Source of the DNA: a virus
Strand: one strand, 5' to 3'
IMG/VR virus record: IMGVR_UViG_3300035703_000083
Location: 1 to 64,000 of that record
Length of the DNA stretch: 64,000 nucleotides
In this document: positions 28,427-31,628 of the stretch, piece after piece
Numbering within the stretch: the first letter of the stretch is position 1
Layout of the letters: the number at the start of each line of letters is the position of its first letter
Position numbers and translations under genes: made by a program
Notes under the pieces: model-generated
Databases searched by the model: none
Seen by the model: only the letters and a program-made list of their open reading frames with translations
What the model was told of the DNA's origin: nothing

Positions 28427-29419
28427 ATGCAAGCCGCCATCACCGCCAATCCCGAAACCCTCGCATCATGTAGCTACATCCCAGGGCGTCATGATTTCAA
28501 CCCTAAGCCTTGCTACGTTAGCGCCGGTCCCATTAACAAGCGCGCCAAACTACCTGCCGAACTTAAAGCGCTTCAAGCCGCGTTAAAAGTAGACTTCAAA
28601 ACTATATTGTCGACCAATCCTAAAACTGAAAAGAGCGCAGTCCAAACCTACATCTTACATTTGGCGCCTGCCGATACTTCAGGCGTTAACATTTGCCCCG
28701 GCGCCGGCAATTGTCGTAAGATTTGCCTACATTTTGCAGGCAATCCCGTCTATATGACCGCGAAGCAAGCGGCCAGAATTCGCCGCACCCTAGCCTATTC
28801 TGCAAACCCTCAGTGCTTCATGCTTGTATTGATCTGCGCGATCCTAGACAAAATCAACAAACACGCTAGCGAACCCTTAGCGTTCAGACTGAACGGCACT
28901 TCTGACGTAGCGTGGGAGAATGTAGATTTTACCATTACGCCTGAGTTTGCTACATTCTGCCGCATAAAGTTCGGCGCGATTCTCCCTATTGGCAAGCGTA
29001 ACATTTTTGAGGTGTTTAACTTTATGCGAGACAATACGGGAGAAAATGTTACATTCTATGATTACACTAAAATCAGACGCAATTGGGCAGAATGTAAGCG
29101 CTTAGGCTATCACCTTACCTTCAGCTTCGATGGATGGAATAATGCCACCAATCTTAAACTGGCTTCTGACGCCATGGCCAATAATGTTAATTTGGCCGCT
29201 GCATTTAGCATCAAGAAAGGCCAGCCCTTAGCCTTTGATGACAATTCAGCCGATAAAATGAAGCGCTGGCTAGGTGCAGTGCCGCTGATCACTGACGGTG
29301 ACCTGACGGACTACAGACCCGCTGATCCTAATGGCGGCGTGATCGTAGGCTTAAGGTTTAAGCTCCCTCATGGCATCGCCTACAGTGCCGTAGAGAGAGA
29401 GGCCTTCTGCATCGCGTGA
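28427..29419 (+). CDS. gp88-like protein with Cx5Cx3C motif
   Basis: A 330-residue protein from ATG 28427. Near residue 90 is NICPGAGNCRKICLHFAGNP, giving Cys-x5-Cys-x3-Cys, a possible Fe-S or zinc site. Later come FRLNGTSDVAWENVDF, ENVTFYDYTKIR and AADF-like substrate segments. This matches, in my recollection, the mycobacteriophage gp88-type family of phage proteins of unknown function. The gene lies beside the repeat cluster and upstream of candidate RNA 2, and palindromes AATGTTACATT occur inside it (29045) and after it (29550). Codon choice differs from neighbours (more AT-rich). Confidence 0.75.
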   Translation: MQAAITANPETLASCSYIPGRHDFNPKPCYVSAGPINKRAKLPAELKALQAALKVDFKTILSTNPKTEKSAVQTYILHLAPADTSGVNICPGAGNCRKICLHFAGNPVYMTAKQAARIRRTLAYSANPQCFMLVLICAILDKINKHASEPLAFRLNGTSDVAWENVDFTITPEFATFCRIKFGAILPIGKRNIFEVFNFMRDNTGENVTFYDYTKIRRNWAECKRLGYHLTFSFDGWNNATNLKLASDAMANNVNLAAAFSIKKGQPLAFDDNSADKMKRWLGAVPLITDGDLTDYRPADPNGGVIVGLRFKLPHGIAYSAVEREAFCIA

Positions 29420-29468
29420 GAGGCGCCTAGGATCGCCTAGAAAGGGCGGCAGGCTGCAGCCATGATAA

Positions 29469-29499
29469 ATCCCCTAGGCGAGAGTCTGGGGGATCTTTT
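29469..29499 (+). terminator. rho-independent terminator after the gp88-like gene
   Basis: ATCCCC pairs with GGGGAT over a 14-base loop, followed by CTTTTA. It separates the gene from the downstream RNA candidate. Confidence 0.75.
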
Positions 29500-29750
29500 A
29501 TGGCGTGGGGGGATAATTCCGACATTTGAGGTCGGGATTTAGCATTGCAAATGTTACATTGTGCTAAACGGTAGCGTACGCTACAGAATTATGGGCGGAT
29601 CGGTGGTAGATTGGCCGCAGCGCAGTAACGCGGCAAAATAAAACGTGGTGGTGCGGGGTATCCCAAAATTGATGGCGGCTATTTTTCAAACGACTTTTTT
29701 GCCCCCAGTATTTATACCTACGCTCCTTCTATTTTGCGCTGTTAAAAGCT
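29500..29750. promoter_or_regulatory. regulatory stretch upstream of candidate RNA 2
   Basis: No gene. It contains the hairpin CCGAC-atttga-GTCGG near 29519, AATGTTACATT at 29550-29560, the perfect 14-base palindrome GTAGCGTACGCTAC at 29571-29584, and a TTTATACC element near 29710 that could be a -10 for the RNA. Operator and promoter functions are inferred. Confidence 0.45.
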
Positions 29751-30230
29751 AGTGCGCACTGCGCGAACGATCTAGTCTTCAATGGAAGGGAGTGAGCGCA
29801 CTAAGATTGTTCGTGCCAAGGAAAGGCTTACGAGAAGAAGCCGCCCGAAGCGGCGTAGGTTAGTGCCTTTCCCGTAGATTTTTCTTAGCAGTTCCGTTAT
29901 GGAATGCTTTATTGCTTAATTTTCATTCTTCCTTTTGCGGCTGCGCACACTTTCAGCGGCTCGAGGCTATTTACGAGCGTTTAAGCAGAAGAAGAAAGTC
30001 GTTTAGAGATGGTTGTTAGGAAGGAGCCCTATGGAAGGAACGCCTTGGGGGCTCTTGCTCGTACGGGCTCCTGGCGAAGGTTTCTTTTGAAACTGTTTCG
30101 AGAGGGGCTGGAGGAAGGTCGCTTGAAACAATCGCCTTAGGGGCTTCCTGCGCGAGGCGACCTTCCTTTGCGAGGCTTGACAACCATCGTTCCTACTGGT
30201 AATGGCAGGTAACGATTTCAGCCGAAGCTG
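29751..30230 (+). ncRNA. candidate large ornate non-coding RNA 2 (about 480 nt)
   Basis: Helices by position: 29761-29773/29804-29816 (13 pairs, two G-U) enclosing hairpins 29777-29788 and 29791-29802; 29820-29827/29865-29872 enclosing 29840-29854; 29887-29908; 29913-29919/29981-29987 enclosing 29940-29957 and 29959-29978; 30008-30016/30180-30188 enclosing 30023-30029/30065-30071, 30080-30093 and the 10-pair helix 30113-30122/30157-30166; 30188-30214; and CAGC-cgaa-GCTG at 30219-30230. G-U pairs fit the plus strand only. No frame is supported. Size, multi-junction form and phage location recall GOLLD or ROOL RNAs, but identity is unproven. Confidence 0.65.
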
Positions 30231-30256
30231 CGCCTATACCTATCATATATCGAACT

Positions 30257-30994
30257 GTGGATCAGAGTGTGCTATGGTTTGGGAGTGTTCATGGAAAAAG
30301 GACTATGGGAAGGGATTGCTTGCTAGTGCTGGCCTGGGCTGACAGCCCAAACAAAGTGAGGCTTGTGCCTTGCCAAAATCAGCAAGAAGCCATTCATCTC
30401 ATCAAAGGCATGGTGCTATGCAGCCCTAAAGACTTGCAAGTGACAGCCTTTGGCTTTATTGATGACGCCCATCGCTTTAAAAGCCAATGGCCTTCTCTCG
30501 CCAAGGGAGAATGGTTTGATTTTTCTCCTGCCATGAAAGTGCTGCTTCTAGAGAGTCTCGACAATCAGCGCGACACCCTCCAGGCCGCCATGTCTTCCTC
30601 CATTGACAATTATTTGCGATGGCCTGAATGGAACATTTCCCGCGCCGAGCGCCGTCGTCTCAACATTGAGGCAGGGCGCCTACCAAATTTTGTGCAAGAT
30701 GCCACTGACTACGTGTTATGGGCCGTTGCTGCTGTCAATGCCCAACGCAGCTATTGCTGCTCTCGTGACATTATTCGCCATCCTGCAAATGATGGACTTT
30801 ACAATTCAAGCACCATCTACAATGTCCTTGCCGAAAGCAAGAAAAAGGGCCTTGTCAAAGAGGACATTATCGCCACTTCCAAGGTGTTTTCGCTCACCAA
30901 TGCAGGCGCAAAGTTCTTGAAAGAAACAGAAGAGGCTTCACAAGCACCTCGTCCACGCAAAAGCGCTAGAAGCATGTATGGTGGCCTCCTATGA
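30257..30994 (+). CDS. winged-helix-like protein, 245 aa
   Basis: GTG 30257 gives VDQSVLWFGSVHGKRTMGRD. The N-terminal ~110 residues are an unfamiliar alpha-beta domain. Residues about 175-225 (SRDIIRHPANDGLYNSSTIY then NVLAESKKKGLVKEDI and KVFSLTNAGAKFLKE) form a winged helix with the wing at SKVFSLT. It may be a DNA-binding regulator. It is the first gene after candidate RNA 2, and TTGACA at 30175 with TAATGG 17 bases later could be its promoter. Confidence 0.65.
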   Translation: MDQSVLWFGSVHGKRTMGRDCLLVLAWADSPNKVRLVPCQNQQEAIHLIKGMVLCSPKDLQVTAFGFIDDAHRFKSQWPSLAKGEWFDFSPAMKVLLLESLDNQRDTLQAAMSSSIDNYLRWPEWNISRAERRRLNIEAGRLPNFVQDATDYVLWAVAAVNAQRSYCCSRDIIRHPANDGLYNSSTIYNVLAESKKKGLVKEDIIATSKVFSLTNAGAKFLKETEEASQAPRPRKSARSMYGGLL

Positions 30995-31230
30995 GCTATC
31001 ACGATCCTTACGAAGACCTAGCGGAAGTGAGGGCTGTATGGCGCATCCACACGCCCAGTAGGCGCTACAAGAACAAAGTGCTAGCAGCGTTTGAAAAGCT
31101 CATGCAACTGCCCAAGACCAGCCATTACAAAACCAGCTTCCCGAAGTACGATGGCTATCAGTTCGACCTCCTTTCTTTTTCCATTGACCATGGTGAAGAA
31201 AGCTTGTCTTCTTCCTACCCAGATTGGTGA
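30991..31230 (+). CDS. hypothetical protein, 79 aa
   Basis: ATG 30991 overlaps the upstream stop. MSYHDPYEDLAEVRAVWRIH, RYKNKVLAAFEKLMQLPK and KYDGYQFDLLSFSID are clear, but no family is recognised. Its stop overlaps the next start (TGATG). Confidence 0.6.
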   Translation: MSYHDPYEDLAEVRAVWRIHTPSRRYKNKVLAAFEKLMQLPKTSHYKTSFPKYDGYQFDLLSFSIDHGEESLSSSYPDW

Positions 31231-31628
31231 TGGCTGATTCTCTCAAGGAGCTTTGTCGCCTCGCCACTAAATACGCTCTGTGCCCTGAAATGGCTGAGCC
31301 TTCCTTGGCTGAACTCAAGAAGCGCTTTGCTGGTTTTGACTGGTGCAAAGACAAGGCCACTGCTGCTGCTTTTGGTTACTACGCAGCCATGGAAGAGTTC
31401 AATGGCAAGAAAACCATCACTAAAAGCATCCATGAGCAATGCACGTTAGTAGTGGACGATGCGCTGGCGGAAAAAATTGACGCTCTAGAAGCCACGGATA
31501 GGATGCTCACGCTTGTCTGTCGCTGGTTGCGTGAAGAAATGTCCCAAGAAGAATGGAGCCTATTTGATGGCTTGTTTGAACCATTCCTGATTAATGAAGA
31601 TTTTATTGAGAAATACATAGAAGAGTAG
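31230..31628 (+). CDS. hypothetical protein, 132 aa
   Basis: ATG 31230 is chosen over TTG and GTG codons just before it because it shares bases with the preceding TGA. The product is helical and acidic (MADSLKELCRLATKYALCPE, FDWCKDKATAAAFGYYAAME, WLREEMSQEEWSLFDGLFE). Function unknown. Confidence 0.65.
   Translation: MADSLKELCRLATKYALCPEMAEPSLAELKKRFAGFDWCKDKATAAAFGYYAAMEEFNGKKTITKSIHEQCTLVVDDALAEKIDALEATDRMLTLVCRWLREEMSQEEWSLFDGLFEPFLINEDFIEKYIEE

Follow-up and report, generated by a model that had tools for sequence, protein, structure and literature searches.

Does the non-coding stretch that follows a gp88-like gene in an uncultured phage encode a large structured RNA and, if so, of what kind? 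The question arises from a preliminary description of the window (the 64,000 nucleotides of DNA analyzed here, most of a 66,486-base IMG/VR virus record), which singled out positions 29751-30230 as a multi-helix RNA candidate. The terminase and ribonucleotide reductase of the phage are 57% and 67% identical, respectively, to those of Synechococcus siphovirus S-CBS4 (the nearest isolate). Thus, a picocyanobacterial host is likely. The phage may be temperate, given a tyrosine-type integrase gene at 359-1210 on the minus strand (PHROG 1, E 1.7e-39).

The gp88-like gene (PF17338) ends at 29419, and an HNH endonuclease gene (PF13392; 26755-27504, plus strand) lies slightly upstream of it. The terminator-like hairpin directly 3' of gp88 (Table 1) suggests that the element is something more than a 3' tail to the gp88 transcript; matching counterparts follow gp88 in the related loci L015, L028 and L003. 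An NsiR1-like Rfam match at 29447-29500 was below threshold, overlaps this terminator, and was rejected. The true start of the next gene is likely the ATG at 30305, after AAAAAGGAC; an alternative GTG start at 30257 would give a protein of 245 aa and would overlap the element. The operon downstream of the element includes 80-aa and 134-aa ORFs and ribonucleotide reductase alpha and beta (from 31954, beyond the 229-aa ORF), and is involved in nucleotide metabolism.

There is no plausible gene in the interval, as first proposed: the largest ORFs within 29751-30230 are 43 aa on the plus strand and 55 aa on the minus strand, and none of at least 60 aa was found on either. Alignments to relatives show no conserved reading frame, with indels among close relatives mostly of a single base. 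The proposal of a 480-nt structured, non-coding element stands, but its size was understated. The element extends from about 29741 to 30265, and there is an additional conserved block upstream. The latter is conserved across both groups of homologues described below, and its GGGGTAYCCC palindrome and ATTTTTCANNNANTTTTT box are unique in the window. It is likely a promoter/operator region; a phage promoter and an additional domain of the RNA are both possible.

Table 1. Positions of the element's parts and of adjacent features in the window.
Feature	Position	Strand	Description
Intrinsic terminator-like hairpin	29469-29494	+	Directly 3' of gp88-like gene
Upstream block	29588-29720	+	GCAGTAAC..CGGC; GCGGGGTATCCC; ATTTTTCAAACGACTTTTTT; AGTATTTATACC at 29707-29718
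5' block	29742-29813	+	ACTGNNCGAACGATCTA..GGAGTGAGNNCACT; in all group A homologues
Helix a, 5' strand	29760-29764	+	TGCGC; 2 covarying pairs
Helix a, 3' strand	29796-29800	+	GCGCA; pairs with 29760-29764
Possible pseudoknot (weak)	29765-29773 / 29804-29812	+	GAACGATCT / AGATTGTTC
Module 1, inverted	29818-29872	+	Stem GGAAAGGC (29820-29827) / GCCTTTCC (29865-29872)
AT-rich linker	29873-29936	+	Length and sequence vary among homologues
Conserved block	29937-29962	+	GCTGCGCACAC..CAGCG; recognizable in group B
3' domain	30008-30188	+	Closed by P1 (GATGGTTGT / ACAACCATC); contains modules 2 and 3 with a small hairpin between
Module 2	30022-30072	+	Stem AGGAGCCC / GGGCTCCT; apical CGCCTTGGGGGCTCTTGCTCG
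Module 3	30112-30167	+	Stem AGGAAGGTCGC / GCGACCTTCCT; apical CGCCTTAGGGGCTTCCTGCGCG
Conserved 3' segment	30225-30265	+	GCTGCGCCTATACCTATCATATATCGAACTGTGGATCA; similar segment closes the group B element
Next gene	30305-30994	+	229 aa; no Pfam or PHROG family

We identified about 30 distinct homologues (group A) by motif-pattern scans of IMG/VR, all in uncultured phages. The element almost always follows the gp88-like gene and usually precedes ribonucleotide reductase; searching with the upstream protein recovered 27 contigs and with the downstream protein one. In a second set (group B), a divergent form of the element occupies the corresponding position. The two groups are linked by nhmmer matches in the flanks and the 3' part (upstream block of the window, E 3.8e-17; 3' part of L049, E 3.1e-12) and by an analogue of helix a found by pattern at six loci (ACGCT/AGCGT, ATGCC/GGCAT and ACGCC/GGCGT). 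The covariance model of the 5' block (R1) did not detect group B. Nucleotide searches of isolate phages and of plasmids gave no convincing match, the 5' block and module patterns had no matches in 84,980 bacterial and archaeal genomes, and S-CBS4 has neither the 5' block nor a module.

Sequence comparison indicates that the element is constrained and non-coding, because it is more conserved than fourfold-degenerate sites in its neighbors and its indels are mostly of single bases. It is 87-89% identical to L060, L032, L046 and L047 (481-500 aligned bases), versus 37-45% at fourfold-degenerate sites of gp88 and 62-63% at those of the reductase. For L002 the values are 80% versus 47%. Gaps relative to the closest relatives are nearly all one base long.

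The predicted structure exceeds chance. The 480 nt of the plus strand fold at -180.5 kcal/mol (z -2.69), with one of 100 shuffles as good, and the core at 30008-30188 reaches z -5.84 as RNA, with none of 200 shuffles as good. The 9-pair helix closing this core (30008-30016/30180-30188) is exact, helices inside it are also real, and P1 was found only in the window's own clade. Folding energy alone cannot tell which strand or which kind of molecule is the folded one: the z-score of the minus strand is better than that of the plus strand (-3.67, at -152.7 kcal/mol), and the core folds at z -5.11 as single-stranded DNA. Nor did the claim that wobble pairs fit only the plus strand prove usable as a test. 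Over all predicted helices G-U outnumber A-C juxtapositions by 352 to 233 in group A and by 179 to 173 in group B, a count that includes mostly unsupported helices and depends on composition; we used a count restricted to the modules instead (see below). Unpaired plus-strand bases are purine-rich (0.56-0.76), and in all but one of 23 homologues the plus strand gives the more stable fold of the two strands, a difference to which composition contributes.

Covariation among related phages is significant in the 5' block (83.9 bits for the window under R1, a model that includes the window among its own sequences). Helix a, in the form TGNNC/GNNCA, is paired in all 23 distinct sequences. Two of its pairs covary (CG, AU and UA at one position, CG, GC and AU at the next), rank first and second among 2850 column pairs, and were each equaled in none of 200 null simulations. 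For the null, substitutions were re-placed at random along a tree, using our own script modeled on R-scape. The minimum free energy fold instead has AGTGCGC/GCGCACT, which covariation contradicts. The flanks CGAAC and AGTGAG are conserved and may form tandem G-A pairs beside helix a. A pseudoknot of the helix a loop with AGATTGTTC is a weak possibility: 66% of cells are paired, and changes are mostly absent or one-sided. A fold of RNA or single-stranded DNA accounts for the 5-bp arms of helix a, separated by about 31 nt, more readily than duplex DNA does. In the 3' domain, unsupervised alignment gave no significant covarying pair; RNAalifold and untargeted covariation have little power there, as stems misalign.

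The three hairpin modules share one apical motif, an internal segment of ~30 bases around CGCCTTGGGGGC, and differ in their stems. The inverted copy (module 1) is at the same place in most homologues, and the order inverted, direct, direct is kept in most. All 35 distinct module stems are complementary, with 319 Watson-Crick, three G-U and one A-C among 323 pairs. Six of eight stem positions covary more strongly than in any of 300 simulations, in modules that were chosen for having a stem. Across 759 kb of phage DNA the modules are restricted to the element locus, bar three isolated weak matches (one in the unrelated L057, two in L074); a shuffled control gave two chance matches in 1.92 Mb. 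Loop tips of module 1 (CCCCAAG-like) are nearly complementary to the CTTGGGG tips of modules 2 and 3, with one central mismatch in the window. These tips are nearly invariant and so lend no covariation support to pairing between them, which counts against tip pairing.

In L042 (~12830, minus strand), L049 (~315, plus strand) and L069 (~974, minus strand), one module is nested at a similar position in the loop of another, following TTTGGG or TTGGGGG. L051 and L059 keep the stem of module 3 and have lost its loop. We interpret the swapped stems and the nesting as signs that modules were copied as DNA. Template switching is reported to create and maintain RNA hairpins (PMC8794818), and in our interpretation the lack of wobbles fits correction of hairpins by this process.

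Outside the modules, GCTGCGCACAC (29937-29962) and GCTGCGCC (30225-30232) are direct repeats that change together (both are GCTACGC in L028 and L044), as if the two blocks met one partner. Some relatives have acquired genes within or beside the element. In group B loci, a minus-strand gene like that of phage endonuclease VII (PHROG 3322/1035, E to 2e-37; three inserts were scanned against PHROG) occupies the 5' end of the element; L023 has such a gene there too, and in this locus it splits the 5' block from the rest. A further insert, between two copies of the 5' block in L069 (1435-2297, minus strand), was judged endonuclease-like by eye only. The remainder of the element is left intact by these genes. 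Homing endonucleases commonly settle beside conserved sequence, and thus the insertions provide mild support for the element's importance.

We are confident that this is a structured non-coding element, and there is a good probability that its working form is RNA. Most likely it is a stand-alone structured noncoding RNA, or a processed leader, of the plus strand, with a function proposed from sequence. This reading is favored by selection with a non-coding pattern, helix a covariation, the complementary module stems, the near-confinement of modules to the locus and the folding of the core, by the separation from gp88 provided by the upstream terminator, by endonuclease insertions that spare the remainder of the element, and, allowing for composition, by the purine-rich loops and stability of the plus strand. 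Against it, no consensus sigma-70 promoter was found for the element, its 3' end in the window lacks a clear terminator, and in most relatives it runs into a same-strand operon. The lack of covariation in the unsupervised 3' domain alignment also counts against it, as do three G-U among 323 module stem pairs, which is unusual for RNA evolving by compensatory change. An array of intrinsic terminators does not fit, as no terminator-like site of the plus strand (a hairpin followed by a T-run) was identified within 29751-30230.

The balance leans somewhat toward an RNA that does not work simply as a cis leader, but the data are compatible with a leader as well as with an independent RNA. As a leader, the element would be a long, structured 5' region that influences in cis the nucleotide-metabolism operon following it, for example by alternative pairing of the mutually complementary loops of module 1 and of module 2 or 3. 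The operon is on the same strand and is usually the same one, no clear terminator intervenes before the next start codon in the window, and the inverted orientation of module 1 permits a long-range helix that would compete with the hairpins (29829-29845/30047-30063, with 76% complementarity across 17 nt). However, the gene immediately 3' of the element varies among relatives (the 229-aa ORF, the 80-aa ORF or other inserted ORFs). L066 keeps the gp88-like neighbor, with no reductase found within about 2.4 kb downstream, and no Rfam riboswitch matched within the element. Such a leader is possible but doubtful. Less probable still is an element working at the DNA level (a replication origin, single-stranded DNA hairpin site or recombination site), with hairpins active in single-stranded DNA. 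Modules in both orientations are simpler to understand for DNA; their nesting in each other's loops, near-perfect Watson-Crick stems and the single-stranded DNA folding score are also consistent with it, and a similar ambiguity was noted for the STAXI motif (PMC2864571). Yet GC skew has no clear turn and no origin signal at the locus, a 5-bp helix around a conserved 31-nt loop would make a poor DNA hairpin, and the plus-strand loops are purine-rich. The scarcity of G-U is compatible with RNA as well, given that template switching reportedly can keep RNA stems perfect (PMC8794818). A functionless build-up of mobile hairpin repeats, comparable to the mitochondrial double-hairpin elements, would account for the nesting of modules at similar points in the loops and for the two orientations. 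It is very improbable considering the confinement of modules to essentially one locus, with no exact-pattern matches in the bacterial and archaeal genomes, their conserved order, and strong purifying selection that extends outside the modules.

Under the favored reading, a putative RNA of ~500-560 nt would be transcribed from the plus strand of this S-CBS4-related phage, with its start at some point from the gp88 terminator to 29741, and would act as a scaffold. Its invariant apical loops may be the working surface, either protein-bound or joined loop to loop, and the variable stems would merely hold the loops in position. More tentatively, and rather unlikely as a whole, it could represent one more class of giant, ornate phage RNAs, with a self-copying hairpin module as building unit (copied in either orientation and also within its own loop) and with mutually complementary loop tips joining arms within or between molecules.

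Only a handful of giant structured RNAs have been described from phages, and little is understood of what they do. This putative RNA family, in phages that probably infect picocyanobacteria, is a new system in which to study function: its anchor helix has statistical support, its design is clearly modular, and several dozen variants of it occur in nature. Its swapped and nested modules document a way in which repeated hairpins may build up a large RNA, and the near absence of wobbles from its stems is relevant to the question whether template switching in DNA shapes RNA structure.

GOLLD forms a closed 14-mer nanocage, and ROOL, which has multiple conserved pseudoknots, also self-assembles into a nanocage; our element has one candidate pseudoknot, with little two-sided change. 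The resemblance to both that was first proposed covers size, form and phage origin. In searches with Rfam 15, neither the window nor any of 18 related loci matched GOLLD, ROOL or OLE at the gathering score, and 28500-31500 matched no large-RNA family even at E<=10. Elsewhere in the window these searches identified an abiF RNA (RF03085; 34556-34592, plus strand, 54.5 bits, above the gathering score) and a Glutamine-II riboswitch aptamer (RF01704; 35869-35922, minus strand, 40.9 bits). ROOL is about 650 nt long and phage- or prophage-borne, with many helices, a variable linker and no known protein partner (PMC12286853). The putative RNA is similar in these respects, but has repeated hairpin modules. 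GOLLD, likewise a phage-borne giant structured RNA of unknown function, often exceeds 800 nt, and both it and ROOL often occur by tRNA islands (PMC12286853). The element, a putative RNA, is shorter, and the 64-kb window has no tRNA genes. The STAXI motif consists of repeated pseudoknots near DNA-handling genes (PMC2864571), and shares with the element a repeated structured unit and the RNA or single-stranded DNA ambiguity; the unit itself and the gene neighborhood differ, and the element has no Rfam match. Mobile double-hairpin elements of mitochondrial genomes (PMC4478555, PMC5910586) are also short hairpin units that apparently copy and insert, and on their descriptions they are set apart from our modules, which are held in fixed order at one conserved locus. 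Thus, judged against the open-licence literature (an earlier description elsewhere is possible), the element is, as first suggested, a good candidate for, and probably is, an undescribed structured element, one that may work like GOLLD, ROOL and OLE but is not grouped with them.
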